Source of the DNA: a virus
Direction: 5' to 3' (one strand)
Virus record (IMG/VR): IMGVR_UViG_3300049740_002954
Coordinates: 1 to 64,000 of that record
DNA: 64,000 nt
In this document: positions 1,148 to 15,839 of the stretch, one piece after another
Numbering within the stretch: the stretch's first letter is position 1
How the letters are laid out: every line of letters starts with the position of its first letter
The notes under the pieces: generated by a model
What the model was told of the DNA's origin: nothing
The model's input: the letters and a program-made list of their open reading frames with translations, nothing else
Databases searched by the model: none
Program-made: the position numbers and the translations under genes

Positions 1148-1176
1148 TTGACATTTTCATTATACTAATCTAATAT
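1148..1176 (+). promoter_or_regulatory. Sigma-70-like promoter, leaderless geometry
   Basis: TTGACA at 1148-1153, 17-nt spacer, TAATAT at 1171-1176, then 7 nt to the ATG at 1184. Transcription is expected to start at or one base before the start codon. Confidence 0.75.
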
Positions 1177-1183
1177 TTAATAC

Positions 1184-1369
1184 ATGAATAAGCAAAATAC
1201 AGGCACTCCACATCCGAAAGTTCGTCCACCTCACAAAAAACCAACACTTTCTAACGAAGAAAGACTAACAATGCTAGAACAAATGGTGCAAAATGCACCA
1301 AATGACAAAACAAAACAAACTATTGAACAACAAATAATTGAATTAAAAAATTTATTAAATAATGAATGA
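1184..1369 (+). CDS. Small hypothetical protein, first of a coupled chain
   Basis: 61 residues. Pro/Lys-rich N-terminus (residues 8-20) and an amphipathic helix (22-60). It begins the only promoter-headed chain between 1184 and 2228, in which each stop overlaps or nearly overlaps the next start (here AATGAATGATGA). No homology recognised. Confidence 0.6.
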   Translation: MNKQNTGTPHPKVRPPHKKPTLSNEERLTMLEQMVQNAPNDKTKQTIEQQIIELKNLLNNE

Positions 1370-1568
1370 TGAATTGCAAAATATAAGTAGCCAAATATGT
1401 AATATCTTCGCAAATAAGATACAATCATTGACAGAAAAGCAAGCAGAACATTTAAATCTATCAAATAATAGTATGAATTTTTATATGCAGTTGCACGATT
1501 ACGATAAAGCAGTATGGAACGCAAGAGAAACCCTACGATACCTCAAGGAAATAACAAAAAATGGATGA
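1362..1568 (+). CDS. Small helical hypothetical protein, paralogue of the next gene
   Basis: 68 residues, predicted all-helical. It aligns by eye with the following product: both share an N-terminal I-x-N hydrophobic helix, then M-x-F-x4-D-x2-x-AV-x2-A-x2-L-x-YL-x-EI at the C-terminus (here ending NARETLRYLKEI). The two look like a tandem duplication. Start overlaps the upstream stop; stop overlaps the downstream start (ATGGATGA). Function unknown. Confidence 0.6.
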   Translation: MNDELQNISSQICNIFANKIQSLTEKQAEHLNLSNNSMNFYMQLHDYDKAVWNARETLRYLKEITKNG

Positions 1569-1779
1569 CTTTGACCCCCAAGCAATCAAAATGCTAGAGT
1601 TGAGCGAGTTAATTGTAAATAAAATTTCATTAAATATAAGTAATTTTGATACAGATCAAATAAGCAACCTCGAAACAATGCAAGAGAGCTTAGACTTTCA
1701 TCTTGAGCAAGACAATATAGATAATGCAGTCAATGAAGCAGAACACTTAAACAAATATTTAGACGAAATATGCATGTAA
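1561..1779 (+). CDS. Small helical hypothetical protein, paralogue of the previous gene
   Basis: 72 residues. The C-terminal half (about 40-70, ending NEAEHLNKYLDEI) matches the preceding protein in spacing and key positions (Asp, Ala-Val, Ala, Leu, Tyr-Leu, Glu-Ile). Acidic overall. Overlaps both neighbours by about 8-10 nt, so the chain is probably translated by re-initiation. Confidence 0.6.
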   Translation: MDDFDPQAIKMLELSELIVNKISLNISNFDTDQISNLETMQESLDFHLEQDNIDNAVNEAEHLNKYLDEICM

Positions 1780-1970
1780 GAAGAGAAATAGATCATATAT
1801 TAGATAATATGCTAGAAATAATTGCAAAAAATAAAACATCAAATAAACAAAATGATGATGACAAGGCAATGATCGAACATCTTGAACAGACCATCAACCT
1901 CAAAACGGACGATGGCAAGCGAGCAAAAGGAATGTGGACTGATTCGCCCGAATTTAATTATACAAAATAA
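1770..1970 (+). CDS. Small hypothetical protein
   Basis: 66 residues; helical N-terminus (VRREIDHILDNMLEIIAK) and a polar C-terminal tail. The ATG lies inside the last codons of the upstream gene (TGCATGTAA), again implying coupling. No recognised domain. Confidence 0.55.
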   Translation: MHVRREIDHILDNMLEIIAKNKTSNKQNDDDKAMIEHLEQTINLKTDDGKRAKGMWTDSPEFNYTK

Positions 1971-2101
1971 TGAATGAAATAATAATACATTCTATATTAC
2001 AAATGATAGGAGCATTTAGCGTATTATACTTTATACAAAATCAAACATTAAATATAATCGACTTAATTAAACAAAAATATGAAGCAAATAAATGTAAATA
2101 A
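1970..2101 (+). CDS. Single-helix membrane micropeptide
   Basis: 43 residues beginning MNEIIIHSILQ, with a hydrophobic stretch (about residues 4-24: many Ile, Leu, Phe, Tyr) followed by a Lys-rich tail. The start overlaps the upstream stop as TAATG. The coding claim rests on this overlap and on the next gene overlapping its end; a membrane-spanning segment is an inference. Confidence 0.45.
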   Translation: MNEIIIHSILQMIGAFSVLYFIQNQTLNIIDLIKQKYEANKCK

Positions 2102-2228
2102 ATATATGGTTGGGAAAAAGAAGCTCGGTAAAGGTCAGCATGGATCAAAGGGCGGAATGGGTGTTCCAACAGGGGCATTTGGCGGAAAATCCAAGTTCAA
2201 TAAAAAAAGACTTGACAATAAATCTTGA
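2079..2228 (+). CDS. Small basic Gly/Lys-rich protein
   Basis: 49 residues, strongly basic (about 14 Lys/Arg) with Gly-rich segments GKGQHGSKGGMG and GAFGGKSKF. Such composition suits RNA or DNA contact, but no family is recognised. The 3' end overlaps the -35 region of the next promoter (2212). Confidence 0.45.
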   Translation: MKQINVNKYMVGKKKLGKGQHGSKGGMGVPTGAFGGKSKFNKKRLDNKS

Positions 2229-2239
2229 TTTGCTATACT
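2212..2239 (+). promoter_or_regulatory. Sigma-70-like promoter, leaderless geometry
   Basis: TTGACA 2212-2217, 16-nt spacer, TATACT 2234-2239, 7 nt to ATG at 2247. The -35 lies inside the preceding coding region. Confidence 0.75.
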
Positions 2240-2246
2240 AGAGGGT

Positions 2247-2486
2247 ATGAACTATTGCGAAACAGAACACGAACAGATTGACTATCAAGCTCAACTCGTT
2301 AAGGAGCGAGATATGAACCCATGCGACATACATTGGGCTAAGTATCTATTACATGATGACGCAAGCCCAAGTGAGTCACCTCTTTATTTTAGAACGCTCA
2401 AGGGAGCATATACATGGGCACAAAACACAAATGATTTCGCACATGGCGAATGGAGTGTTTACGAAGTGGGTGGAAAGGTTTTATAA
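2247..2486 (+). CDS. Hypothetical acidic protein
   Basis: 79 residues, acidic and aromatic, with a C-terminal segment 'TLKGAYTWAQN...GEWSVYEVGGK' that looks like a compact alpha/beta fold. No known family. Its start is fixed by the promoter, whose -10 ends 7 nt upstream. Confidence 0.65.
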   Translation: MNYCETEHEQIDYQAQLVKERDMNPCDIHWAKYLLHDDASPSESPLYFRTLKGAYTWAQNTNDFAHGEWSVYEVGGKVL

Positions 2487-2493
2487 AAAAGGC

Positions 2494-2521
2494 TTGACAA
2501 ATCTGAATAGTCTGTCATAAT
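2494..2521 (+). promoter_or_regulatory. Sigma-70-like promoter with short leader
   Basis: TTGACA 2494-2499, 16-nt spacer, extended TGT-CATAAT ending 2521. The ATG at 2555 is 33 nt away, giving a leader of about 27 nt that contains TTAATTGCTTAAAAAATT, a leader motif shared with the genes at 13301 and 13927. Confidence 0.7.
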
Positions 2522-2554
2522 AGAATACATCAACCATTAATTGCTTAAAAAATT

Positions 2555-2731
2555 ATGATTAAAATACAAATTGAAGATTACTACGGAAATGATTTATGTA
2601 GCTTTGTCGCCAATCCTTTTGACGAAGAGAATGTTATTAGTGCATTTGGCAAGTTTGACGGATGCGATATTGCTGATCTTGATGAAGAAGATGGCATGAG
2701 TATTGTCCGTGTTCAACTTAACTATAAATAA
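2555..2731 (+). CDS. Small acidic hypothetical protein
   Basis: 58 residues with about 13 Asp/Glu and only 4 Lys/Arg, so very acidic (central FDGCDIADLDEEDG). Short acidic early phage proteins often act as DNA mimics or enzyme inhibitors, but that is only a possibility here. Own promoter and A-rich leader support expression. Confidence 0.55.
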   Translation: MIKIQIEDYYGNDLCSFVANPFDEENVISAFGKFDGCDIADLDEEDGMSIVRVQLNYK

Positions 2732-2745
2732 AAAAAGATAAAATT

Positions 2746-2970
2746 ATGAGTATTGCAAAAAACGCTAGAGCATCACAAGTTATGAGTGACATTAAGAACG
2801 GCAAACACACTCCTGTCAATAAACAGGGCAAGTTTGCGAATTACGGATCAATCCCCGAAGATAGTATCTATTATTCTACTATTTTGGCACAGAAAGCAGA
2901 CGCTGAACGCTTGGCGAGGATCGAGCGTAGTAAAGCGAGACTTGGTAGAAGATCATTTTTTGCATGGTAA
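2746..2970 (+). CDS. Small basic hypothetical protein
   Basis: 74 residues, basic (many Lys/Arg, with a C-terminal ERLARIERSKARLGRRSFF segment). It lies 14 nt after the preceding gene behind AAAAAAGATAAAATT, probably the same transcript. Another frame is open from 2786 but lacks a start context and is treated as a shadow. Confidence 0.6.
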   Translation: MSIAKNARASQVMSDIKNGKHTPVNKQGKFANYGSIPEDSIYYSTILAQKADAERLARIERSKARLGRRSFFAW

Positions 2971-3056
2971 AAGATGCAAATTTTGAGTTTCACATACTTA
3001 ATACAATAAATTATTAAATACAATATCATTTTGCATGATAAAACAAGCTAAACAAT

Positions 3057-3296
3057 ATGATTGAATCACTATCTCCTAATGTGTCAATGTTTGCAACAGA
3101 GCAAGAGCTTCGTAATGAGTTAACCACAAAAGAATATGTTTATGTTAAACTCGCGAAGTTAGACGAATTCGTTCAAGATTTGTATCACTGCACACAATAT
3201 CCAAATAACAAAGTAGTTGATGCAAATAATACAATCAAATACATTAAACAAATACAAGAAGACTTATTAAGAGTAAACCGAAATAATTGCAAATAA
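3057..3296 (+). CDS. Hypothetical protein
   Basis: 79 residues; shares the first residues MIES with the next gene. Predicted mostly helical (C-terminal NTIKYIKQIQEDLLRV). No convincing promoter was found directly upstream; a weak TTGCAT lies at about 3031. Function unknown. Confidence 0.55.
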   Translation: MIESLSPNVSMFATEQELRNELTTKEYVYVKLAKLDEFVQDLYHCTQYPNNKVVDANNTIKYIKQIQEDLLRVNRNNCK

Positions 3297-3299
3297 AAT

Positions 3300-3452
3300 A
3301 TGATTGAATCAAAAGACATTGTACTACAAATAAGAAAATTATTAGAAGATAAATTAGACTTAAAAATAAAAGATCATGGCTTATGGAGAATACAATGTTT
3401 AATACATGATGAAATAAAAGAAAAAAAAGAGTTGACAAATAATAAAGTATAG
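3300..3452 (+). CDS. Small hypothetical protein
   Basis: 50 residues beginning MIESKDIVLQIRKLLEDKL, helical and charged. Only 3 nt separate it from the upstream stop, and both products begin MIES, hinting at local duplication. The last codons contain the -35 and spacer of the strong promoter at 3432-3460. Confidence 0.5.
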   Translation: MIESKDIVLQIRKLLEDKLDLKIKDHGLWRIQCLIHDEIKEKKELTNNKV

Positions 3453-3460
3453 AGTATAAT
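3432..3460 (+). promoter_or_regulatory. Perfect consensus sigma-70 promoter for candidate ncRNA
   Basis: TTGACA (3432-3437), exactly 17 nt, TATAAT (3455-3460): a full match to the bacterial consensus, the best in the window. It points to a region with no credible same-strand gene until 3834. Confidence 0.85.
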
Positions 3461-3466
3461 AGAAGC

Positions 3467-3795
3467 ATAATAAGTTGAGAAACAAACTCAAATAAATCAA
3501 ATAAATTGATCTTTAACATTTTTTAGAATTTGGAAGTTCTCGACGGAGACTTCCTGTGGGTGACTGAATAAGCTCGTCGTGAGCGAGCTAAGGTACGCGA
3601 TTCTCTGTGGTGGAGTGCTAATGGGCAAATGTCTGAGGCAGGACAATACCAAGTCTAATCGTTGTAGGAAGTAGGTACTCAATGAACTGCTGTTCACGCC
3701 GAAAACTTGAGGGTATACAGGAATCCCTCCCCACTTCAATTTCTTAATCATATCCCTAGCCCACCCAAGTCCTACCCCTTGGGTGGGCTTTTTTA
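3467..3795 (+). ncRNA. Candidate structured early non-coding RNA
   Basis: About 330 nt lie between a consensus promoter and a strong terminator, without a plausible + strand gene. Base composition is near 47% GC against roughly 33% around it. Visible helices: GGAAGT/ACTTCC closing CTC-GACG-GAG (about 3531-3553), AGCTCG/CGAGCT (about 3570-3588), GAAC-TGCT-GTTC (about 3682-3693), TACTCAA/TTGAGGGTA around it, and GAAGT/ACTTC enclosing this arm (3669-3738). I looked for RNase P, tmRNA, 6S and group I intron core motifs and saw none. It may be a regulatory RNA or decoy; class unknown. Confidence 0.55.
3758..3794 (+). terminator. Intrinsic terminator
   Basis: A perfect 12-bp stem (AGCCCACCCAAG / CTTGGGTGGGCT) with an 8-nt loop followed by TTTTTT at 3789-3794. 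It ends the candidate RNA and lies just before the next promoter. Confidence 0.9.
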
Positions 3796-3798
3796 TGG

Positions 3799-3827
3799 TT
3801 GACAGATCAATCGATATCATTCATACT
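3799..3827 (+). promoter_or_regulatory. Sigma-70-like promoter, leaderless geometry
   Basis: TTGACA 3799-3804, 17 nt, CATACT 3822-3827, 6 nt to ATG at 3834. It excludes the upstream in-frame ATGs at 3783-3798 as real starts. Confidence 0.75.
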
Positions 3828-3833
3828 AGTATC

Positions 3834-4088
3834 ATGAAGACATTAAAAGACATACTTGCTAACTACGGATACATCAACTCAGCTCAACTCGCAGAAATTG
3901 CCGAGCATTTTCCACACATGAAAGTTGTTATTAAATGGGGTGGACTACCTCGCGATCGACTTCCTGCTTTTCAAGCTGTTGAAACGATCGAGCGAGTCGA
4001 ACGAGAAAATTTAGATTATTGCAGAGAAGTATTTCTTTGTGGTCAAGATTGCGACAATCTTCGCACAGCACTTCACATTGCATCCTAA
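3834..4088 (+). CDS. Hypothetical protein
   Basis: 84 residues starting MKTLKDILANYG. Helical N-terminus with repeated Ala/Glu, then VVIKWGGLPRD and a Cys-containing C-terminal part (Cys at about 63, 69 and 73). No family recognised. The start is set by the promoter 6 nt upstream. It probably shares its transcript with the glycosylase that follows after 18 nt. Confidence 0.6.
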   Translation: MKTLKDILANYGYINSAQLAEIAEHFPHMKVVIKWGGLPRDRLPAFQAVETIERVERENLDYCREVFLCGQDCDNLRTALHIAS

Positions 4089-4106
4089 CCTCAAACAAAA
4101 AAAGAT

Positions 4107-4682
4107 ATGATTAACCCAGCAGAAGTAACAAATTACAATAGAACACAATACGAATTAGAAGAATTTATTCTATTTTGTATTAATGTTGCAGGAAAGAAAA
4201 GTTCAATCGAAGCACCTAAATTAGAAGTGTTTATAGAGAGAGCAAAAAACATAACAAAAGAAACAACACCATTTAATTGTATAAGAAAATTAATTGAGTT
4301 GGGCCGGCTGCAAGAGATCATGCATTGGGCTAAGCTAAGTCCGTATGCCCAGCGATACAATTCTTATGTTTCTGTAGTTGCAATCAATGACCTCCAGACA
4401 GTTACCCTGAATCGCTTACTGCAGGTTCCTGGCGTAGGTCTCAAAACTGCCAGGTTTTTCTTGTCGCATTCACGAGAAGACTTTGACGAACCAATGCTGG
4501 ACACACATATCTTACGGTTCCTTCGCGATCAAGGATACAAGGACGCACCGAAAAGCACGCCTTCAAATGTAGGTATCTACAACTATTACGCCAATGTATT
4601 CAAGATGTTCGCTCGAACTCTAGGCAAATCAGTCACTGATCTTGATCTTGAAATTTGGAAGAAGTACTCGGGTACTGCATAA
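4107..4682 (+). CDS. HhH-GPD DNA glycosylase/AP lyase (endonuclease III-like)
   Basis: 191 residues. The helix-hairpin-helix QVPGVGLKTARFFL (about residues 108-121) carries the lysine used by bifunctional glycosylases, and MLDTHIL (about 131-137) supplies the catalytic aspartate of the GPD loop. The C-terminal Cys cluster of endonuclease III is absent, so no Fe-S cluster is expected. It should remove damaged bases and nick at abasic sites, or act on modified host or phage bases. The N-terminal 90 residues are AT-rich in codon use and less conserved. Substrate cannot be told from sequence. Confidence 0.75.
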   Translation: MINPAEVTNYNRTQYELEEFILFCINVAGKKSSIEAPKLEVFIERAKNITKETTPFNCIRKLIELGRLQEIMHWAKLSPYAQRYNSYVSVVAINDLQTVTLNRLLQVPGVGLKTARFFLSHSREDFDEPMLDTHILRFLRDQGYKDAPKSTPSNVGIYNYYANVFKMFARTLGKSVTDLDLEIWKKYSGTA

Positions 4683-4690
4683 AAAATTTT

Positions 4691-4768
4691 ATGGAAGTAA
4701 CAACAATAATAATAATCAGTAGTATCGTGGGCATCGTAAGACTAATCAGAGACGCTCGCGACTGGTGA
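4691..4768 (+). CDS. Membrane micropeptide, copy A
   Basis: 25 residues: MEVTTIIIISSIVGIVRLIR then DARDW. One hydrophobic helix with a charged C-terminus. It is too short to trust alone, but a second copy on the other strand at 10577-10663 encodes MEITTILIISSIVGIIRMVQ plus a different tail, with many synonymous changes, which strongly supports coding. It lies 8 nt after the glycosylase stop. Confidence 0.6.
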   Translation: MEVTTIIIISSIVGIVRLIRDARDW

Positions 4769-4778
4769 AAATTCCAAA

Positions 4779-4858
4779 CGACAAATAACCAAATAACAAA
4801 TAACATCTATTCAAATAATGAGTTAGCCAAATACAAAATACAAATACCCAAATAAGGT
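4779..4858 (+). repeat. CAAATA(A/C) direct-repeat array A
   Basis: About eight near-copies of CAAATAA or CAAATAC with 0-10 nt between them. No long protein is encoded. A similar array lies at 10332-10397, also beside a copy of the micropeptide gene and a stem-loop repeat. Possible protein-binding iterons. Confidence 0.5.
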
Positions 4859-4922
4859 ATAGAAAAATAAAATTTATAAAATTAGAAGAAAAAGTCAATT
4901 ATAATGTAAGTGATTGAATAAG

Positions 4923-4966
4923 AACGAGTTGTGGCACGCGCCCTGGGTTATTATCATAAGTCGTTA
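4923..4966. repeat. Dispersed stem-loop repeat, copy 1
   Basis: Arms AACGAGTT and TAAGTCGTTA flank a GC-rich centre (GCACGCGCCC). The most diverged copy of an eight-member family. It precedes the promoter at 5012. Confidence 0.55.
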
Positions 4967-5011
4967 TAATTCAAAGAGTTATGTGTTATATAAATTTTTT
5001 GAAAAAAAGTG

Positions 5012-5039
5012 TTGACACATGCTAAGAATCTGTCATACT
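5012..5039 (+). promoter_or_regulatory. Sigma-70-like promoter, leaderless geometry
   Basis: GAAAAAAAGTG then TTGACA 5012-5017, 16 nt, extended TGT-CATACT ending 5039, 6 nt to ATG 5046. An in-frame ATG inside the spacer (5019) would be untranscribed. Confidence 0.8.
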
Positions 5040-5045
5040 ATAGGA

Positions 5046-5444
5046 ATGATTAGGGCAAAGCCGAACGACAAAAAGTATGAGATTAACTTTAATCAGCCTG
5101 TCTACGCTTACAAAAACCTTCATAAAGATTGTTGGAGTATTCGTCAAGATGGATTAGTTAAGGCTCACACAAAAGAACTTTCTATGCACAGTTGCGTATT
5201 CAAGGTGAGCAAGCACGGAAGAGCAAGAGTGCTAAAAGAAAAACGCAAAAATGTTCATGCAGGTATTGAGGGCTACATTGAGCCGTGGTTTATGGGTAAA
5301 TGGATTGATTCGCATCCAACGGCTCGACCTGTCACTTACAATCCATACAAGTATAAGAATTTTGTTGACAAAGACACCGAGCAAATGGTAGACTATGCTA
5401 TTGCCGTAAGATTAGAACCTAAACAAGTATTAGCAGTATTATGA
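5046..5444 (+). CDS. Conserved-type phage hypothetical protein
   Basis: 132 residues. The pattern 'VYAYKNLHKDCWSIR..GLV..HT' early and 'GRARVLKEKRKNVHAGIEGY' (about 65-84) recurs in many unrelated phages as a small early protein of unknown role. Basic and beta-rich. It overlaps the next gene by ATGA. Start chosen from the promoter position rather than the upstream ATG at 5019. Confidence 0.7.
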   Translation: MIRAKPNDKKYEINFNQPVYAYKNLHKDCWSIRQDGLVKAHTKELSMHSCVFKVSKHGRARVLKEKRKNVHAGIEGYIEPWFMGKWIDSHPTARPVTYNPYKYKNFVDKDTEQMVDYAIAVRLEPKQVLAVL

Positions 5445-5674
5445 CACAAGCAAAAATCAGAGAAGACATTCTAAGCATAGTTCGAGGTAATCTTGCATGG
5501 GCGGATCCAATGTCCAAAGTATGCTTAGATCAACACGAATTGCATCCAAAAAAGTTTCCGATTGGCTCAACTTTTCAATCAGCCGAAGAAGTATTAGACG
5601 ACATCATTTGTGACTTGACATCTTTACGAGATGAGATTAGAATAGACTCATCTTTTCAATCAGCTCAACTCTAA
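5441..5674 (+). CDS. Hypothetical protein
   Basis: 77 residues, mostly helical and acidic, with a duplicated phrase SSFQSAQ/STFQSAE near residues 47 and 71. Start overlaps the upstream stop (ATGA). No known family. Confidence 0.55.
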   Translation: MTQAKIREDILSIVRGNLAWADPMSKVCLDQHELHPKKFPIGSTFQSAEEVLDDIICDLTSLRDEIRIDSSFQSAQL

Positions 5675-5687
5675 CAAAAGGAAAATT

Positions 5688-6113
5688 ATGGGATTAGATC
5701 AATACGCATACGCACGACCACCACGCAAACGGAATTCAGATGATGATGAAAATTTGTGCGAGTGGAGAAAACACAATCGACTACAAGGATACATGGAAAG
5801 CGTTTGGGAAAGCAAAGGTTGCCCAAACAGAAAAGTTGATGATGATGGAGAGATTATTGAAGACTTTAATTGTGTCGAGCTGCAACTAACAAGTTCAGAC
5901 ATTGATGAACTCGAATACGCAATCGACAATTTTGAATTGCCCGAATCAAATGGATTCTTTTGGGGTTCTGATTCTTACTTTTGGCACGATGAAGATGGAA
6001 AACCTTTTCCTGAAAACGAATACTATTACAAAGAACAAGACTTAAATTTTATTTCGGAAGCAAGAAAAATGTTTGACAAAGGTTATCGCATTTACTATAC
6101 TTGTTGGTATTGA
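5688..6113 (+). CDS. Conserved phage protein of the 'MGLDQYAYAR' type
   Basis: 141 residues. Begins MGLDQYAYAR, then a WRKHN-x-L-Q-G-Y-M block, a 'NCVELQLTSSDIDELE' block, NGFFWGSDSYFWH and a C-terminal GYRIYYTCWY. This order of blocks is widespread in phage genomes; no biochemical role is known to me. Very acidic. A partial ribosome-binding site (AAAGGAAAATT) precedes ATG. Confidence 0.7.
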   Translation: MGLDQYAYARPPRKRNSDDDENLCEWRKHNRLQGYMESVWESKGCPNRKVDDDGEIIEDFNCVELQLTSSDIDELEYAIDNFELPESNGFFWGSDSYFWHDEDGKPFPENEYYYKEQDLNFISEARKMFDKGYRIYYTCWY

Positions 6114-8173: not shown

Positions 8174-8201
8174 TTGACATACGCATTTATTCTGTCATAA
8201 T
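8174..8201 (+). promoter_or_regulatory. Sigma-70-like promoter, leaderless geometry
   Basis: TTGACA 8174-8179, 16 nt, TGT-CATAAT ending 8201, 6 nt to ATG 8208. Confidence 0.8.
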
Positions 8202-8207
8202 GAAGTC

Positions 8208-8951
8208 ATGATTAAGACAACAATTCTCACTCAAGGAAACGCAAAGATAGTCAAAGGCGAAGAGCTTGGCTATGTGACAAAAGGCATCCACTTCGCTCCT
8301 GCTAGTCTCTCAGGCAATGAAGTTTGCCAATGGCGAAGTAAAGGTTGCACTGCTTCTTGTCTCAATACGGCAGGTCGTGGACGCATGAATTCAATCCAAG
8401 CATCAAGAATAGCAAAGACAAAGTTGTTCTTTGACAAACAATTCGATTTCCTTGCCAAGTTATCGAAAGAAATTTCTTCTTCAATCAAGTCAGCCACAAA
8501 GAAGGAAATGAATTCTGTTTTTCGTCTTAACCTTACGAGCGACATTTCTTGGGAATCAGTTTTCTTCAATGAAAGACAACCAAAAACAATTTTCGACAAG
8601 TTTCCGTCAATTCAATTTTACGATTATACAAAGTCATTCAAAAGAATGTGTGCTTTTCTTGACAAGCCTTTCACTAAAGATGAACAAAAATTTCCATCTA
8701 ATTACCATCTAACTTTCTCTCGTTCAGAAACAAACGATAAGAAATGTGAAATGGTTCTTGCTATGGGTGGCAATGTTGCCGTTGTGTTTCGCAATCAACT
8801 TCCAAAAACTTGGAAAGGTTATGAAGTTGTCAATGGTGATTCAAACGATTTGCGTTTCCTTGACAAACAAGGTGTGGTCGTTGGCTTAATCGAGAAAGGT
8901 ATGGCAAAGAAAGACGAAACAGGATTCGTGCAAGAAGGAATTGACTCTTGA
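8208..8951 (+). CDS. GP88-like phage protein
   Basis: 247 residues. The first 70 residues carry the signature of the phage gp88 family: LTQGNAKIVKGE, then 'GIHFAPASLSGNEVC', a Cys-x6-Cys-x3-Cys group and NTAGRGRMN (about 52-60), followed by an Arg-rich helix. The clustered Cys and basic residues suggest a metal-binding nucleic-acid protein. Exact function unknown. Transcribed from its own leaderless-type promoter; the promoter of the next gene lies within its last codons. Confidence 0.65.
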   Translation: MIKTTILTQGNAKIVKGEELGYVTKGIHFAPASLSGNEVCQWRSKGCTASCLNTAGRGRMNSIQASRIAKTKLFFDKQFDFLAKLSKEISSSIKSATKKEMNSVFRLNLTSDISWESVFFNERQPKTIFDKFPSIQFYDYTKSFKRMCAFLDKPFTKDEQKFPSNYHLTFSRSETNDKKCEMVLAMGGNVAVVFRNQLPKTWKGYEVVNGDSNDLRFLDKQGVVVGLIEKGMAKKDETGFVQEGIDS

Positions 8952-8976
8952 CAAAACAACTCAACTCAACTATTAT
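8948..8976 (+). promoter_or_regulatory. Sigma-70-like promoter, leaderless geometry
   Basis: TTGACA 8948-8953 (overlapping the upstream stop codon), 17 nt, TATTAT 8971-8976, 6 nt to ATG 8983. Confidence 0.75.
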
Positions 8977-8982
8977 TGTAAA

Positions 8983-9150
8983 ATGAATGATACTTATTAC
9001 GACTCAGCCGAAGAAATTAAACTTTCACAAAGCGAAGCTTTTAATGTGCTTGCTCAACATGGTTGCCAAGAACTTGATGAATTCTTTCAAGACATGGGTG
9101 ACAAAGAAGAGTATGATGCACAAAAAGTGTTGGAATGGTTAGGTTACTAA
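8983..9150 (+). CDS. Small acidic hypothetical protein
   Basis: 55 residues, acidic (DDTYY/DSAEEIKLSQSEAF; ends EYDAQKVLEWLGY). The true start is the ATG 6 nt after a -10 box; an upstream in-frame start at 8941 would place the promoter inside the gene. Helical; no known family. Confidence 0.6.
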   Translation: MNDTYYDSAEEIKLSQSEAFNVLAQHGCQELDEFFQDMGDKEEYDAQKVLEWLGY

Positions 9151-9251: not shown

Positions 9252-9279
9252 TTGACTTTCACTATCAATCTGTCACAAT
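9252..9279 (+). promoter_or_regulatory. Sigma-70-like promoter, leaderless geometry
   Basis: GAAAAAAAGTG then TTGACT 9252-9257, 16 nt, TGT-CACAAT ending 9279, 6 nt to ATG 9286. Confidence 0.75.
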
Positions 9280-9285
9280 TAAACT

Positions 9286-9399
9286 ATGATTAAGATTAGA
9301 AAAACCATTCTCTTCACCAAGTCAAGACCACACAAGGTCAAGGCAAAAGTGATTCACCGCAAACTCAAACACAAGGAGAAACTCGCCCATGTATCTTAA
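9286..9399 (+). CDS. Small very basic protein
   Basis: 37 residues beginning MIKIRKTILFTKSRPHKVK, with about 14 Lys/Arg/His. Short, but the promoter's -10 ends exactly 6 nt before the ATG as in longer genes, and the gene overlaps the next one. Possibly nucleic-acid binding. Confidence 0.5.
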   Translation: MIKIRKTILFTKSRPHKVKAKVIHRKLKHKEKLAHVS

Positions 9400-10472: not shown

Positions 10473-10519
10473 TCAACGAGTTACAAAAAAACCTAGGGCC
10501 GGTTTCCTAAGTCGTTGAT
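10473..10519. repeat. Dispersed stem-loop repeat, copy 5
   Basis: TTCAACGAGTTAC, an A-tract, CCTAGGGCCGG and CCTAAGTCGTTGAT. It lies between convergent gene blocks, so it cannot be a promoter element for both; a 3'-end role fits. Confidence 0.7.
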
Positions 10520-11202: not shown

Positions 11203-11230
11203 AGTCTAATGATTTGATTGTGAAAGTCAA
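11203..11230 (-). promoter_or_regulatory. Sigma-70-like promoter, very short leader
   Basis: TTGACT (11230-11225), 16 nt, TAGACT (11208-11203), 9 nt to ATG 11193. Confidence 0.6.
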
Positions 11231-11233
11231 GCC

Positions 11234-11440
11234 TTATTGCCAAATTGTTTCGACATCGTCATGAATTTGGGAAAAGGTGATGTCTTGCTCTTCGGCAAGT
11301 ATTCTGTCAAGGTACGGAGATCGACCTGTTTTTCTGTCGATGTTCGCAGAACGAACTCGCGGATATTCTTGGGATGGGTTATCCCAAACTTTAACGCTGT
11401 AGTGGGTTGACCACTTTTTAATTCTAATTTTCTTAATCAT
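11234..11440 (-). CDS. Small basic hypothetical protein
   Basis: 68 residues beginning MIKKIRIKKWSTHYSVKVWD. Basic N-terminus, acidic C-terminus. The start at 11440 is chosen because the promoter lies between it and the in-frame ATG at 11509. Unknown family. Confidence 0.55.
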   Translation of the reverse strand: MIKKIRIKKWSTHYSVKVWDNPSQEYPRVRSANIDRKTGRSPYLDRILAEEQDITFSQIHDDVETIWQ

Positions 11441-11448
11441 ATGTTTTA

Positions 11449-11477
11449 AACTTAAACTATTTTTAATGCAATTGCAA
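11449..11477 (-). promoter_or_regulatory. TTGCAA-class promoter
   Basis: TTGCAA (11477-11472), 17 nt, TAAGTT (11454-11449), 8 nt to ATG 11440. It overlaps the 5' part of this transcript's upstream neighbour region. Confidence 0.55.
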
Positions 11478-11489
11478 GCACAAAGTGAT

Positions 11490-11675
11490 TTATTTTTCAC
11501 TTTCTGCAAAAGATTCTTTAATTTGTTTAAGAGTCCATATATGACCCCCCACGTCTTCGTATAGTGGGGAAAACTCGTGATCCTCTAGGATTCGTGGAGA
11601 AAACTCCGCGTCAATGTAGACACGCCCTACAATTCCGAGGACGTCTTCCATGTATTCTATTAATTCAATTTCCAT
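11490..11675 (-). CDS. Small acidic hypothetical protein
   Basis: 61 residues beginning MEIELIEYMEDVLGIVGRVY; acidic, with a C-terminal helix. No family. -10 box 6 nt upstream of ATG. Confidence 0.55.
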   Translation of the reverse strand: MEIELIEYMEDVLGIVGRVYIDAEFSPRILEDHEFSPLYEDVGGHIWTLKQIKESFAESEK

Positions 11676-11681
11676 ACTTAT

Positions 11682-11709
11682 AACCTAACACGTTTTAAAA
11701 AAAACACAA
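11682..11709 (-). promoter_or_regulatory. Promoter with leaderless geometry (weak -35)
   Basis: TTGTGT (11709-11704), 16 nt, TAGGTT (11687-11682), 6 nt to ATG 11675. Confidence 0.5.
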
Positions 11710-11791
11710 GAAAAAAGTTTAAAAGTTATTCACAAAATTCAATTTAAAGATTGGCACGAAACTTGTATAAACTTTTCTGTAAACGCTTGAA

Positions 11792-11841
11792 ACGCAACGA
11801 CTTCCGGAAAAACCGGAGGGTTGTTGCCCTAACTCGTTGAC
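11792..11841. repeat. Dispersed stem-loop repeat, copy 6 (inverted)
   Basis: Begins GCAACGACTTCCGG and ends CCCTAACTCGTTGA. An internal CTCCGG/CCGGAAG stem replaces the usual centre, a compensated variation that supports a conserved fold. Confidence 0.65.
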
Positions 11842-11869
11842 CATTAGGACTTTAGAAGTCCGTTTGGTC
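11839..11869 (-). terminator. Hairpin downstream of the gene at 11894
   Basis: Nested stem GACC/GGTC around GGACTT/AAGTCC with a 3-nt loop. It lies 25 nt after the minus-strand stop; there is no T tract. Confidence 0.4.
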
Positions 11870-11893
11870 GTGGAAGCCCCAGTCTATGTCGGG

Positions 11894-12040
11894 TTACTCC
11901 TCGAAGTCGAGGAGTGAGACCTTGTCCTGCAGGTCGCCGATTTCGTTGCGAATCGCAACGCGATCAGCAGAAGTGAGAACGGAGTCCGCGAGGACTTCGC
12001 GGAGGAGAGAGATTTTGTTTAGCATTTCTGTTTTAGTCAT
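11894..12040 (-). CDS. Small hypothetical protein
   Basis: 48 residues beginning MTKTEMLNKISLLREVLADS, a helical and acidic coiled coil. Locally higher GC and biased codons (CTC, GCG, GAG) unlike its neighbours. The start is fixed by a promoter ending 6 nt upstream. Confidence 0.6.
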   Translation of the reverse strand: MTKTEMLNKISLLREVLADSVLTSADRVAIRNEIGDLQDKVSLLDFEE

Positions 12041-12046
12041 ATAAGT

Positions 12047-12075
12047 AATCTAGCAAAGTTTTTCGGAAAAGTCAA
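12047..12075 (-). promoter_or_regulatory. Sigma-70-like promoter, leaderless geometry
   Basis: TTGACT (12075-12070), 17 nt, TAGATT (12052-12047), 6 nt to ATG 12040. Confidence 0.75.
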
Positions 12076-12093
12076 GTTTTTTTTAATTTTTTT

Positions 12094-12315
12094 TTATTCG
12101 TCCATAAGCCATTCGTCAAGTGCGTAAGTGTCAAGATCTGGATCTTTGTAGCTCGCTCCGTCCGGAGTTGTGGGTGTGTCCATCTCTTCGAGCTTGTTCG
12201 CAAGATCTTTATAGTTTACAAATCTGCGAGAAAGCTTGTAGAGAGCTTCGTCATTTCCTAGCCAAAGAGCAACATTCCAAGTTGCCCAATTTTTCCAACC
12301 GTTGTAATTTTCCAT
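12094..12315 (-). CDS. Phage protein of the 'GWKNWATWNVALW' type
   Basis: 73 residues. The start MENYNGWKNWATWNVALWLG matches a very common phage/plasmid family in which G-[WY]-x-N-x-x-T-W-x-V-x-L-W begins a short helical protein. Function unknown. Acidic C-terminus. Confidence 0.7.
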   Translation of the reverse strand: MENYNGWKNWATWNVALWLGNDEALYKLSRRFVNYKDLANKLEEMDTPTTPDGASYKDPDLDTYALDEWLMDE

Positions 12316-12321
12316 AATTTG

Positions 12322-12350
12322 ATACTGACAGGTTAAGGGTTAAAGGTCAA
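12322..12350 (-). promoter_or_regulatory. Sigma-70-like promoter, leaderless geometry
   Basis: TTGACC (12350-12345), 17 nt, CAGTAT (12327-12322), 6 nt to ATG 12315. It overlaps the end of the upstream gene. Confidence 0.7.
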
Positions 12351-12529
12351 GCAAAAAAAGGATGAATCTCAATTTGCCAAGGCATAAAGTTGAAGCGATA
12401 CTGAGAACGATACAACCTGCAAGTGATTAACTTGCCAAGGCTATCTTTGCGAGCGAAGCCCACGACTTGAAAGGTTTTACCCTTGTGTGTGCCATATTTG
12501 ACACGAACTACATCATTTAACTTAATCAT
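12347..12529 (-). CDS. Small KOW-like protein
   Basis: 60 residues beginning MIKLNDVVRVKYGTHKGKTF. The V-R-V-x4-H-K-G-K-x3-V-V-G pattern resembles a KOW motif of NusG/L24-type RNA-binding SH3 folds. Start at 12529 (after a -10 box), not the in-frame ATG at 12559. If the fold is right it might touch RNA or RNA polymerase; inference only. Confidence 0.5.
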   Translation of the reverse strand: MIKLNDVVRVKYGTHKGKTFQVVGFARKDSLGKLITCRLYRSQYRFNFMPWQIEIHPFFA

Positions 12530-12537
12530 ATACCTAC

Positions 12538-12566
12538 AAGGTAGCACAGTACGAAGCAAATTGCAA
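12538..12566 (-). promoter_or_regulatory. TTGCAA-class promoter with TACCT/AGGTA dyad
   Basis: TTGCAA (12566-12561), 17 nt, TACCTT (12543-12538), 8 nt to ATG 12529. TACCTTGTAGGTA forms a perfect 5-bp dyad over the -10 and start site, identical to that at 15802. Confidence 0.65.
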
Positions 12567-12627
12567 GAAAAAAGCGATAAAGTTATTCACAAAAGTGCAT
12601 TTTATTTTGTGGTGCAAGTTGTTGTTT

Positions 12628-12674
12628 TTCAATGAGTTACGAAAAAGCCTAGGGCCGAAGCCCTAAGTCGTTGA
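12628..12674. repeat. Dispersed stem-loop repeat, copy 7
   Basis: TTCAATGAGTTAC, AAAAAGCCTAGGGCCG, AAGCCCTAAGTCGTTGAT; AGGGC/GCCCT pairs inside the arms. It starts 4 nt past the stop of the nuclease gene at 12678. Confidence 0.7.
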
Positions 12675-12677
12675 TAC

Positions 12678-13301
12678 TTAAGAGCTTAGCTTGTAGCAAA
12701 GTTGAACTTGCCGAGCATTAGATTTGGAGTTTGAGTTATCATTCAAGTAGAATCGTGCAGTCTTTAACTTTTTGTTTTCTTTCTTGACTTTTTCTCTTGT
12801 ACCTTCAAAGCCTTTGATTGGATTTGATTTATCCTTTACAAAAGCTACAATTTTCTCCATATGCTCGAAGTCTGATTCGTGCTTGCAAGGTTCGATTTTT
12901 ATGATTTGCAAGTCGCAGACATTGCAAGGCTCTTGATCGTAAAACGCGACAATCAAAACAAGTCCGTCTTTTATCTTTTGCATTTTCTTCATTGCGTCAC
13001 CCATCAAAAAGACTTTGCGTTTCTTTTCGTAGAATTTGATTTCAATGTCGTGATGGAATTCTTTTGGCAAGTTGCTACGCTTGGCAACAGATTTGGGGAT
13101 GTCGCAAGCGTGTCCGTTTTGGTCGAACAGATTTCCGTTTTCATCTCTAAAATTAAAAAGTCTTGCAACTGCCATTTCTCCTGCCTTGCCGTGCTTCTTG
13201 TTTTGTGAGCCTTGAGCGTGGACAATTCCGTTTCTTATATCACGCAGAGATTGATTAACATATGAGTGGAGATGATTCAATTGATTTTGTGCAAGTTTCA
13301 T
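12678..13301 (-). CDS. Putative PD-(D/E)XK endonuclease
   Basis: 207 residues. GKAGEMAVARLF (about 39-50) followed by HHDIEIKFYEKKRKVFLMGD (about 83-102) gives the Glu, Asp and E-x-K arrangement of PD-(D/E)XK nucleases, in the style of type II restriction enzymes; a DQNGHACDIP insert separates them. The C-terminus is basic. Could cut host DNA or rival phage DNA. No partner methylase is seen. It shares an almost identical leader (AACTTAATTGCTAAAAATA) with the HNH gene upstream, so both are probably co-regulated. Confidence 0.6.
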   Translation of the reverse strand: MKLAQNQLNHLHSYVNQSLRDIRNGIVHAQGSQNKKHGKAGEMAVARLFNFRDENGNLFDQNGHACDIPKSVAKRSNLPKEFHHDIEIKFYEKKRKVFLMGDAMKKMQKIKDGLVLIVAFYDQEPCNVCDLQIIKIEPCKHESDFEHMEKIVAFVKDKSNPIKGFEGTREKVKKENKKLKTARFYLNDNSNSKSNARQVQLCYKLSS

Positions 13302-13337
13302 ATTTTTATATTTTTAGCAATTAAGTTTATAGTATTT

Positions 13338-13365
13338 ACTATATTCTATATTCTGCCCGTGTCAA
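13338..13365 (-). promoter_or_regulatory. Promoter of the PD-(D/E)XK gene
   Basis: TTGACA (13365-13360), 16 nt, TATAGT (13343-13338); leader about 30 nt with AACTTAATTGCTAAAAATA. Confidence 0.7.
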
Positions 13366-13378
13366 GCGTGAATGCAAA

Positions 13379-13927
13379 TTATTTTAAAAAATGATTGAAT
13401 GCACTTTCAAGTTTTCCTTTGTTAAGATTTTCTTTTCTGTCGCGAGGTACGAAGTTTGACCAATGATTTCCTCCACCGCTTTGTCTCTCTTTTACATGGT
13501 CGACATTCCAAGCGTTATCAACATTTCTATTTGTCCAATTATCCCATTGCTTGCCGTCTTCGAGCTGCACATCCAAGAATATTCTAAATTGATCGAGCGA
13601 ACAGCCCAAAGCCTCTTTATTTCCTCCGAGCTTGACAACCTTGTCGGAAAAGTTCTTTCTTTCCGCGTGGGTCGTTAACATTTTCACTTTCGGATCGTGT
13701 ACAATTTTATTTCTTATTCTTTTATATTTTTCTTTTATGTTTACAATTTCTTTCTTTTTTACTTCAATCATCTTTTTGAGATTTTCAATTGATTCAAGTT
13801 CTGCTTTGATTTGTAATTGCTCTGAGATTTTAAGCATATCTCCGAGATCGAGATCTGTTCTGTTATGATCCTTTATTTTGTTTCTTCCGTGATGTTTATT
13901 CCAAGCTTCAGATATTTTGACTTTCAT
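13379..13927 (-). CDS. HNH endonuclease
   Basis: 182 residues. A coiled-coil N-terminus (30-75) precedes the typical phage HNH module: GCSLDQFRIFLDVQL, then W-D-N-W, WNVDHVKERQSGGGNHWSN (about 141-159) and the final NLNKGK. The 'D-H' pair and the terminal Asn-x-x-Lys are in place. It should nick or cut DNA; a homing or host-degradation role are both possible. Separate promoter with the same leader as the neighbouring nuclease. Confidence 0.75.
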   Translation of the reverse strand: MKVKISEAWNKHHGRNKIKDHNRTDLDLGDMLKISEQLQIKAELESIENLKKMIEVKKKEIVNIKEKYKRIRNKIVHDPKVKMLTTHAERKNFSDKVVKLGGNKEALGCSLDQFRIFLDVQLEDGKQWDNWTNRNVDNAWNVDHVKERQSGGGNHWSNFVPRDRKENLNKGKLESAFNHFLK

Positions 13928-13962
13928 AATTTTATATTTTTAGCAATTAAGTTTATTCTTCT

Positions 13963-13991
13963 TTTATATATGTTTTATTTTTGTTTGTCAA
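13963..13991 (-). promoter_or_regulatory. Promoter of the HNH gene
   Basis: TTGACA (13991-13986), 17 nt, TATAAA (13968-13963); leader about 29 nt. The -35 overlaps the region just below the micropeptide stop at 14001. Confidence 0.7.
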
Positions 13992-14000
13992 ACATTATTT

Positions 14001-14081
14001 TCAATCTTCTGATAAAAGATCTGACCACATAACATAAAAGACAAAAGAGAAAGAAGAGATGAGAATTATTTCTAGTATCAT
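14001..14081 (-). CDS. Possible membrane micropeptide
   Basis: 26 residues: MILEIILISSFSFVFYVMWS then DLLSED. One hydrophobic helix with an acidic tail, similar in design to the two micropeptides at 4691 and 10577 but not clearly homologous. Preceded by CAAAAAAAT. Coding status is uncertain. Confidence 0.4.
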   Translation of the reverse strand: MILEIILISSFSFVFYVMWSDLLSED

Positions 14082-14097
14082 ATTTTTTTGAGTTGAG

Positions 14098-14253
14098 TTA
14101 TTTACTTGATGAGATCGGAGCATGATGCTTGCGACTTAAACGCTTTGCGATTTGCATGGCTTGGGTATGAGTTTTTGCGTTGTCTACAAGTTTGCCATTA
14201 TAGAGAACATTAAACCAACTTTGGAAGTTTGGGTTTCTGAATACATTTATCAT
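14098..14253 (-). CDS. Small basic hypothetical protein
   Basis: 51 residues beginning MINVFRNPNFQSWFNVLYNG, basic C-terminus (AKRLSRKHH). Preceded by AAAGGAAATTGCTAAA, which combines a weak Shine-Dalgarno with the GCTAAA leader element. Pattern 'F-VLYNGKLVDNAKTHTQAMQIA' suggests a small alpha/beta fold. Unknown family. Confidence 0.55.
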   Translation of the reverse strand: MINVFRNPNFQSWFNVLYNGKLVDNAKTHTQAMQIAKRLSRKHHAPISSSK

Positions 14254-14312
14254 TTTAGCAATTTCCTTTTTTAGATGTTATTCGTAAAGATTAAACTAGT
14301 TGAGGCGACCTG

Positions 14313-14537
14313 TCAAGCATTTCTTTCAACTGATTTCCAACCAAAGGCACGAACTTGATCCTCATGCCGAGCTTGTGGAAGCATGGACTTGAGCGTTTCA
14401 ATGCGAGCAAGAATCCACTTGCGAGTGTCGCCTGTGGCAGGTACAAACTTACGCAAGTCGTGATCGTAGTGGTCGCTATTAAGGCGAGCTTCGAGGCGTT
14501 CGATGTCGAATTTAATGTCTTCAGTTTTCGTAATCAT
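14313..14537 (-). CDS. Hypothetical protein
   Basis: 74 residues beginning MITKTEDIKFDIERLEARLN; a helical N-terminus and a 'DTRKWILARIETLKSML' helix. Helical hairpin likely. Leaderless-type promoter 6 nt upstream. Confidence 0.6.
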   Translation of the reverse strand: MITKTEDIKFDIERLEARLNSDHYDHDLRKFVPATGDTRKWILARIETLKSMLPQARHEDQVRAFGWKSVERNA

Positions 14538-14543
14538 ATTTAC

Positions 14544-14572
14544 AATCTAGTTTATTTTTCGGCAAATGTCAA
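14544..14572 (-). promoter_or_regulatory. Sigma-70-like promoter, leaderless geometry
   Basis: TTGACA (14572-14567), 17 nt, TAGATT (14549-14544), 6 nt to ATG 14537. Confidence 0.8.
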
Positions 14573-14600
14573 ACTTTATTTTACTTTTTTTTAAGTTTTT

Positions 14601-14825
14601 TTATCCGTTGTATTTGTAGTTTTTATCTTGCTCAAGAGCCTTTGCCCAAGATGCTGACTCCTCGTCATGTTGAATTGAAACGATCTTTGCATCTTTGCCG
14701 TAGTCGGCAAGTCTTTCGGCTTTGAATGTCTCAATGCATTTTACGCCTGTGGCAGTTGATCGCTCGATCTTGCCGTTGAAAGTGGATTCAATTATTATTT
14801 TCTTGTAGTTATTTGTCTTAATCAT
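14601..14825 (-). CDS. Hypothetical protein
   Basis: 74 residues beginning MIKTNNYKKIIIESTFNGKI. Alternating beta strands then a helix, about equal Lys and Glu. Unknown family. Start supported by the promoter. Confidence 0.6.
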   Translation of the reverse strand: MIKTNNYKKIIIESTFNGKIERSTATGVKCIETFKAERLADYGKDAKIVSIQHDEESASWAKALEQDKNYKYNG

Positions 14826-14831
14826 ATGTAC

Positions 14832-14860
14832 AACATAGCATGGGAAGTGCGAAAAGTCAA
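14832..14860 (-). promoter_or_regulatory. Sigma-70-like promoter, leaderless geometry
   Basis: TTGACT (14860-14855), 17 nt, TATGTT (14837-14832), 6 nt to ATG 14825. Confidence 0.75.
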
Positions 14861-14909
14861 GTATTATTTTACTTTTTTTAAAGTTTTTTTATATCGTAAG
14901 TCGTTAACA

Positions 14910-14956
14910 CTTAACAAGTTACATAAAAACCTAGGGCCGGAGCCCTAAGTCGTTGA
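14910..14956. repeat. Dispersed stem-loop repeat, copy 8
   Basis: TTAACAAGTTACAT, CCTAGGGCCGG, AGCCCTAAGTCGTTGAC. A second partial arm (GTAAGTCGTTAACA) lies at 14896-14909, so this site may be a rearranged double copy. Starts 12 nt after the stop at 14968. Confidence 0.7.
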
Positions 14957-14967
14957 CTGTGTGCTAC

Positions 14968-15276
14968 TTAGAACACAAGAGGATCGGGCAACTTTGTGTT
15001 ACTTGCGAACCAATCGGATGAGTCAATTACTTGACCGTTTAGAATAAGATCGAATTTGACTTGACAAACGCCCGCATTGGCTATGCCGTTCACGCGTTCG
15101 CGTGTGGTCGGTGTGTTCCAACCTGCGAGTGACCAACGCACGAGCCCGTCGGGATCGCGTTTGACAATCGCGTTGCCATGTAGCCAAACGGTCTTGCCGT
15201 CTGTGGAAGTGTTGCCAATTGTCTTGGCTTCACCGCGTTCAAATGCTTGTTTTATTTGTGCTGTTACTTTTCGCAT
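14968..15276 (-). CDS. Phage protein with 'LHGNAI...LAGWNTPTTRERVN' block
   Basis: 102 residues. The block around residues 33-65 (LHGNAIVKRDPDGLV, then SLAGWNTPTTRERVNG) recurs in many phage and plasmid proteins of unknown role. Basic and beta-rich. Locally GC-richer than the flanks. Confidence 0.65.
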   Translation of the reverse strand: MRKVTAQIKQAFERGEAKTIGNTSTDGKTVWLHGNAIVKRDPDGLVRWSLAGWNTPTTRERVNGIANAGVCQVKFDLILNGQVIDSSDWFASNTKLPDPLVF

Positions 15277-15282
15277 AATTTT

Positions 15283-15311
15283 ATTATTAACTATTAAAGG
15301 TTGAAAGTCAA
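15283..15311 (-). promoter_or_regulatory. Sigma-70-like promoter, leaderless geometry
   Basis: TTGACT (15311-15306), 17 nt, AATAAT (15288-15283), 6 nt to ATG 15276. Confidence 0.65.
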
Positions 15312-15314
15312 GTT

Positions 15315-15557
15315 TTATTTTCTGTCTGCAACTTCATTATGCAGAATGTTTTGCCATGCTTTGCGAGCTTGTTGCACAGCGTGCAAGGCGTCCATAATCG
15401 CCATGCCTTCGGTGATGCCAATCTTTGAGGCGTCAGAATTTGATTGCTGAGCCAAAAAGTTTAGGTTGCCTTCTGCTTTAGAGAGTGCGAGTCCAAGATC
15501 AAGCTTGGAGTCTAATTGTTTTCTAACTTGTGCGAGTGTGTTATTGTTGTCTATCAT
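15315..15557 (-). CDS. Helical hypothetical protein
   Basis: 80 residues beginning MIDNNNTLAQVRKQLDSKLD; entirely helical and Ala-rich. Possibly oligomeric. Unknown family. Confidence 0.6.
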   Translation of the reverse strand: MIDNNNTLAQVRKQLDSKLDLGLALSKAEGNLNFLAQQSNSDASKIGITEGMAIMDALHAVQQARKAWQNILHNEVADRK

Positions 15558-15563
15558 AGTATT

Positions 15564-15592
15564 ACTTTAAGAAATTTTTTGTGTGATTGCAA
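15564..15592 (-). promoter_or_regulatory. TTGCAA-class promoter, leaderless geometry
   Basis: TTGCAA (15592-15587), 17 nt, TAAAGT (15569-15564), 6 nt to ATG 15557. Confidence 0.65.
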
Positions 15593-15610
15593 GCAAAAAG
15601 TGAATTATTT

Positions 15611-15802
15611 TTAGCTTATCCATTCGACAAGCTCAAACTTCCGAGGCAGTCCAAACTTGGCAAGATCTTTATTTAGATCCTCAATTGTTGCGTGGTGTTC
15701 GCATTTCATCATTACATTTGAGCTGATCAGCTCGCCTGTCTTACGGTCAATTATATTTACTTTGGCAATGAAGCCGTTTACTTTACTATTTGTCTTAATC
15801 AT
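15611..15802 (-). CDS. Small hypothetical protein
   Basis: 63 residues beginning MIKTNSKVNGFIAKVNIIDR; beta-rich with 'KTGELISSNVMMKCEHHA'. Start at 15802 is chosen because the -10 and dyad lie between it and the in-frame ATG at 15820. Unknown function; first gene of the leftward block. Confidence 0.55.
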   Translation of the reverse strand: MIKTNSKVNGFIAKVNIIDRKTGELISSNVMMKCEHHATIEDLNKDLAKFGLPRKFELVEWIS

Positions 15803-15810
15803 ATACCTAC

Positions 15811-15839
15811 AAGGTAACATACAAGCAAGCGAATTGCAA
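15811..15839 (-). promoter_or_regulatory. TTGCAA-class promoter with TACCT/AGGTA dyad
   Basis: TTGCAA (15839-15834), 17 nt, TACCTT (15816-15811), 8 nt to ATG 15802; same TACCTTGTAGGTATATG block as at 12529. Confidence 0.65.

Follow-up and report, generated by a model that had tools for sequence, protein, structure and literature searches.

The late promoters of phage T4 have the sequence TATAAATA and are read by the sigma factor gp55. In phage phiEco32, gp36 reads a single tAATGTAtA element, and transcription starts 6-8 bp downstream of it (PMC8948821). Thermus phage phiYS40 has been reported, in a passage that cites Sevostyanova 2007, to produce leaderless middle and late transcripts (PMC3594737), and a 2017 paper described phage transcripts as 'often leaderless' (PMC5312081). 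In the Deinococcus-Thermus group, leaderless genes with an adjacent -10 box are common (PMC12340547). Here we have analysed the promoters of an AT-rich phage (34% GC), the IMG/VR virus record IMGVR_UViG_3300049740_002954 of 81,074 bases, whose positions 1-64,000 form the window, i.e. the whole stretch of DNA under study, and whose remainder (64,001-81,074) was read as locus L002. The phage encodes a terminase, DnaE, DnaB, RNR, PhoH and an ATP-dependent protease. Two classes of candidate promoters, one with a TTGAC -35 box and a -10 box, the other with a single GTGTA box, lie so close to ATG start codons that the messenger RNAs (mRNAs) of the first gene of many transcription units would probably be leaderless or nearly leaderless, with 0-3 nucleotides (nt) before the start codon.

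The arrangement resembles that of phiYS40 in that a phage would express many genes as leaderless mRNAs. However, phiYS40 has a Thermus host, in which leaderless genes are common, and the leaderless class reported in the passage on it is the middle and late one, whereas here the early and replication genes under TTGAC promoters are leaderless-spaced too, a GTGTA class without a -35 box occurs together with a phage sigma factor, and the clade is not a Thermus one. With phiEco32 it shares a phage sigma and a single-element promoter without a -35 box and with a similar core (xTGTA); the box here is GTGTA and is spaced to the ATG, while leaderless placement is not described in the source's passages on phiEco32. 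T4 late promoters are likewise single -10-like elements read by a phage sigma, but T4 genes have Shine-Dalgarno (SD) leaders: SD motifs before starts number 42 vs a background of 5 in T4, and 9 vs 4 genome-wide in the present phage, in which they are nearly absent. The leaderless genes of Deinococcus-Thermus and actinobacteria have a -10 box a few nt before the ATG and no SD, as here (PMC12340547, PMC3160421), but these are bacterial chromosomes, and the Deinococcus motif works without a -35 box, whereas the early class of the phage keeps canonical TTGACA. In the literature searched, which omits most subscription papers, a two-class leaderless arrangement is not described for any phage clade. 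The preliminary description of this DNA had called the design unusual for a phage; its novelty was overstated, since phiYS40 is a published precedent (PMC3594737).

That description listed 16 start codons with a TTGAC(A/T/C) box upstream and, beyond a spacer, a -10-like box, and all 16 have these elements (Table 1). The -35 box is TTGACA at 11 of them, TTGACT at four (9286, 12040, 14825 and 15276) and TTGACC at one (12315). The spacer is 16-17 nt as described, 1184 alone scoring best with 15 and also fitting 17. The -10 box, said to end 6-7 nt before the start, does so at exactly 6 nt in 13 of the 16 cases, at 7 nt for 2247, at 5 nt for 47902 and at 7-9 nt for 1184, depending on the hexamer chosen, which gives a whole range of 5-9 nt. 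The further statement that this spacing consistently excludes upstream in-frame ATGs is thin evidence, since such ATGs exist in only two of the genes (3834 and 5046).

Testing all of the genome for raw enrichment of hexamers relative to ATG gave no clear signal, and because coding ATGs swamp this count, start-anchored and promoter-anchored tests were used in its place. Genes were called with a simple script, promoters were scored by an E. coli sigma70 matrix built independently of the present data, and the controls were mononucleotide shuffles, T4 (equal in GC and length), host-like genomes and, as a GC-rich control only, KT254133. A -10 box lies 4-8 nt before the ATG at 12 of 25 promoter-bearing starts, vs 0.2-0.45 in shuffles and 0 of 23 starts in T4. 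In a gene-blind scan, which found 38 promoters in the phage, an ATG stood exactly at +6 after the -10 box nine times vs 0.6 expected, while neither GTG (0) nor TTG (1) was enriched at this position, the start preference being for ATG only. Comparison with shuffled controls had been named beforehand as the check, and by these numbers the distance is far tighter than in random sequence of the same composition.

Two scans of viral contigs yielded 160 loci with DnaE or capsid/portal-like relatives, which are partly non-independent even after removal of upstream stretches that were identical. Nearly all orthologs of PHP (51-84% identity), NrdB (91-98%) and DnaB (36-64%) retain the TTGAC box, the -10 box and the short distance to the ATG, while the bases between these elements differ; the spacing is retained down to ~36% protein identity with the inter-box sequence scrambled. 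The N-termini of the orthologs also agree, and the start codons are therefore right. In the related loci TTGAC peaks 35-36 nt before the ATG, there is no AGGAG peak before the starts, and 113 starts have a -10 box 4-8 nt from the ATG vs 6.0 in shuffles. An unbiased ranking of pentamers 34-38 nt before starts in the relatives gave TTGAC 136 times vs 16.1 expected, and nine large relatives contain 400 instances of TTGAC-N27-31-ATG vs 147 for the reversed control. A TTGAC peak at offset 27 vanished once open reading frame (ORF) starts were required. Although some of the ORFs in the list, such as 9286 and 12040, are very short, the idea that the spacing reflects misassigned start codons or chance in AT-rich DNA is contradicted by the gene-blind statistics, the shuffles, the T4 control and the conservation among orthologs, and we give it next to no credence.

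The preliminary description had regarded the design as a system-wide feature, and this proved right and larger than claimed, because the GTGTA class, which lacks a -35 box, is placed likewise. The 81 kb genome contains 31 copies of GTGTA, and 11 of them lie 14-16 nt before a called ATG. In the relatives no other pentamer is as strongly enriched at a distance of 13-18 nt before starts (295 vs 7.3 expected). In the gene-blind test an ATG stands 14, 15, 16 and 17 nt after GTGTA 132, 94, 69 and 59 times, respectively, vs 19.9 expected per position, with GTG and TTG flat, the start enrichment thus being ATG-only; the same test found no such placement in T4 and host-like genomes. The excess is seen in nearly all of 14 records, and no conserved -35 was found upstream of the box. 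At 27268 the box is retained in nearly all of 64 listed orthologs (41-79% identity), the bases after it varying. In most relatives the protease gene starts as GTGTA-N5-ATGAAR-ATGAC. The content of the marked genes (terminase-adjacent, protease and other) suggests that they form a late class.

In many genes the box is close to the ATG and the preceding gene ends nearby (the gap is 0-39 nt at 169 of 296 sites), as would be expected if GTGTA were not a promoter but a translational signal, or a site bound by a phage regulator, within the leaders of longer transcripts. On the other hand, it has the same offset as a -10-type element and lacks complementarity to the canonical anti-SD, at 47902 it overlaps the -10 box of a TTGAC promoter, and the phages encode a sigma factor. 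Furthermore, two divergent genes each have a box (66331/66409), one per strand, at L002 2831-2925 (genome 66331-66423). The orthologs of 30767 retain the box 28-39 nt from the ATG with an SD-like AAGGAAAAAGG in the leader, which fits a promoter, unlike a translational signal. We therefore regard a non-promoter role of GTGTA as quite improbable and prefer to read it as a promoter.

Sigma70_r2 (PF04542) was matched in 14 of 14 records searched, 13 of them over the cut-off; the protein encoded at 22335-23072 reached an E of 2.6e-6 in the genome search. PHROG 1740, 'RNA polymerase sigma factor', was matched by 29 of 31 aligned homologs, and the alignment has four conserved cysteines and a region-4-like C-terminus. 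For region 4, PF04545 was over the cut-off in none, and alignments to ECF sigmas made by Foldseek extend over 200+ columns; the Foldseek matches of the AlphaFold2 model are mostly chains of ECF and other sigmas, the best being 6koo_F (E 4.4e-3, probability 0.99). Most members, the present phage included, have no ATG for the sigma ORF, which made a frameshift worth considering. A GTG start is possible in 32 of 43 examined, and the common GTG overlaps the codons of an AT-hook-like KKRGRPRK that ends the upstream gene in relatives; in the present phage that gene, encoding a 108-amino acid (aa) protein, stops before the AT-hook. A GTG start would be simpler than a programmed frameshift, with translational coupling as another candidate. 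Since the sigma gene lies in an operon with its own sigma70-type promoter, a cascade from host sigma70 to phage sigma to GTGTA genes seems likely, in which the phage sigma with host RNA polymerase would be the most likely reader of GTGTA.

In the mechanism that we propose, the early and replication genes would be transcribed from host-sigma70-type promoters (TTGAC-16/17-TATAAT-like) whose -10 box ends 6-7 nt before the ATG, and RNA polymerase would start at the A of the ATG. One such promoter, which ends 5 nt upstream of the ATG that opens the sigma operon, would give rise to the phage sigma, with which host RNA polymerase would read the single-element GTGTA promoters, 14-17 nt before the ATG, of head/packaging-linked, protease and other, probably late, genes. 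By the start geometry of phiEco32 gp36, these promoters would also start at about the A of the ATG. The 70S ribosome, or the 30S subunit with initiator tRNA, would initiate directly on the 5'-terminal AUG, and downstream genes of the operons would use weak SD-like or A-rich signals, or coupling. Leaderless initiation would then probably be the default for many transcription-unit-first genes of this phage clade in both temporal programmes, matching an SD-poor host.

A related reading is that the mRNAs are not truly leaderless but have short leaders (~2-10 nt) and are translated in the A/U-rich, SD-free manner of other SD-poor bacteria. It agrees with the variation in distance (5-9 nt for TTGAC and 14-17 nt for GTGTA), with the 12 nt gap of NrdA, which is conserved in the relatives and would correspond to a leader of ~5 nt, and with host-like genomes that have no SD signal anyway. 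The usual sigma70 discriminator is 6-7 nt long, however, and the mode of the distances falls exactly there; moreover, the enrichment is for ATG and not for GTG or TTG. We consider short leaders unlikely as the general rule, and leaderless or nearly leaderless mRNAs remain the favoured reading.

Several points weigh against that reading. The transcription starts are deduced from the geometry of the boxes. At 13 of the 25 promoter-bearing starts the -10 box lies 9-69 nt from the ATG (33-38 nt at 2555, 7003, 13301 and 13927, and 14 nt at 48902), so roughly every second promoter-bearing gene is leadered or short-leadered, and the uniform use of the design put forward in the preliminary description was overstated. 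A second ATG (34651/34657) blurs the start of the protease gene, and the leaderless sigma70 signal is weak in the host-like genomes, being 8 vs 2.7 in one and near background in the others. As for the sigma factor, the 22335-23072 protein alone scored 21.8 bits with PF04542, just below the cut-off, its AlphaFold2 model has a mean pLDDT of 69 (modest confidence), and none of the Foldseek matches reaches 0.001. The early genes 635, 2555, 3057, 7003, 13301 and 13927 have in common an A-rich leader of ~20-33 nt, without SD and with a GCTAAAAATT-like sequence before the ATG, which may be another translation signal.

The closest relatives of the PSCyt2/PSD1 gene (45632-47902) are in marine Opitutales (Verrucomicrobiota), at ~45-63% identity, and some Verrucomicrobia have been reported to be SD-scarce (PMC10783764). 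No SD signal was found in five Opitutales genomes (~1.2 Mb), in which several PSCyt2/PSD1 homologs have a TTGC- or TTGAT-like sequence 35 nt before the ATG; no 16S end that would give the anti-SD was found in the metagenome-assembled genomes. A search for bS21 and S1-domain proteins carried by the phages, which might retune ribosomes, found none. Leaderless use throughout the host was set aside, since only one of the five Opitutales genomes gave a signal, a weak one, and the cultured Opitutales phage P8625 has two leaderless-spaced starts vs 0.4, which is too few. The phage collection held no close relative of the window DNA, the terminase or the capsid/portal-like protein, and cultured relatives thus gave no host. 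On balance, an SD-poor marine Opitutales is the better guess for the host, and the phages are large, uncultured and apparently marine. The PSCyt2/PSD1 (DUF1549/DUF1553) gene adjoins a DUF1501 gene (44327-47902, minus strand), a pair typical of Planctomycetes/Verrucomicrobia chromosomes; related phages also carry these, DUF1501 in 27 loci and PSD1 in 20.

Table 1. Candidate promoters and sigma-operon genes in the window. For promoters with two boxes, the length after the boxes is the distance from the end of the -10 box to the ATG.
Feature	Start codon (gene)	Positions	Strand	Remark
TTGACA promoter	1184	1148..1186	+	best score with spacer 15, distance 9 nt; alternative TTGACA-17-TAATAT, 7 nt
TTGACA-16-TATACT, 7 nt	2247	2212..2249	+	
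TTGACA-17-CATACT, 6 nt	3834	3799..3836	+	
TTGACA-16-CATACT, 6 nt	5046	5012..5048	+	
TTGACA-16-CATAAT, 6 nt	8208 (GP88-like)	8174..8210	+	
TTGACA-17-TATTAT, 6 nt	8983	8948..8985	+	
TTGACT-16-CACAAT, 6 nt	9286	9252..9288	+	weak; ORF of 37 codons
TTGACT-17-TAGATT, 6 nt	12040	12038..12075	-	ORF of 48 codons
TTGACC-17-CAGTAT, 6 nt	12315	12313..12350	-	
TTGACA-17-TAGATT, 6 nt	14537	14535..14572	-	
TTGACT-17-TATGTT, 6 nt	14825	14823..14860	-	
TTGACT-17-AATAAT, 6 nt	15276	15274..15311	-	
TTGACA-17-TAGAAT, 6 nt	39134 (PHP; DnaE operon)	39132..39169	-	arrangement kept in relatives
TTGACA-17-TATTAT, 6 nt	43261 (NrdB)	43226..43263	+	conserved
TTGACA-17-AATAAT, 5 nt	47902 (PSCyt2/PSD1)	47900..47936	-	GTGTA box overlaps -10 (dual promoter)
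TTGACA-17-TACCAT, 6 nt	61811 (DnaB-like helicase)	61809..61846	-	conserved
TTGACA...TAATAT, 12 nt	39245 (NrdA)	39204..39247	+	conserved short-leader exception
TTGATA-16-TATAAT, 5 nt	22007 (sigma operon)	21974..22009	+	distance 5-9 nt in most of 29 relatives
108-aa protein with CxxC pairs	22007	22007..22333	+	first gene of sigma operon
Putative phage sigma factor	GTG (probable)	22335..23072	+	region 2, conserved Cys cluster, region-4-like C-terminus
GTGTA, 20 nt before ATG	16039 (PhoH-like)	16019..16041	+	start codon uncertain
GTGTA, 15 nt before ATG	17654	17639..17656	+	
GTGTA, 14 nt before ATG	20743	20729..20745	+	
GTGTA, 15 nt before ATG	27268 (probable portal/capsid gene, conserved, beside terminase)	27253..27270	+	
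GTGTA, 28 nt before ATG	30767	30739..30769	+	leadered exception
GTGTA, 16 nt before ATG	34651 (ATP-dependent protease)	34649..34667	-	10 nt before in-frame ATG 34657
GTGTA, 14 nt before ATG	41949 (subtilase)	41935..41951	+	
GTGTA, 15 nt before ATG	51425	51423..51440	-	within end of preceding gene
GTGTA, 16 nt before ATG	62118	62116..62134	-	conserved at 38-54% identity

Other features of the genome include three closely similar terminator-like hairpins (TTAGG...GGCCCTAGG) at 10490-10513, 12648-12667 and 14928-14951 on the minus strand, which follow minus-strand early genes and most of which are followed by a T run. The C-terminal repeat of the subtilase (41949-43223, plus strand) matches the acidic repetitive protein model PARP below the model cut-off. 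Genes for a SET-domain protein (37873-38406, within the DnaE operon) and HSP20 (48942-49367) lie on the minus strand, as does a glycan cluster (50271-57836) encoding a nucleotide-sugar epimerase, glycosyltransferases of families 6, 11 and 25, a galactosyltransferase and a sulfotransferase.

The arrangement helps to correct gene starts in these phages and gives a hint of their host, and its signature is easy to scan for in metagenomes. It also provides a sigma factor and a promoter whose pairing is open to in vitro tests, and, if the proposal is true, it makes single-base predictions about start sites and the AUG requirement. These phages would then be a sequence-defined system where the first genes of both promoter classes are, as a rule, translated from leaderless mRNAs, and this rule would hold outside the actinobacteria, Deinococcus-Thermus and archaea.

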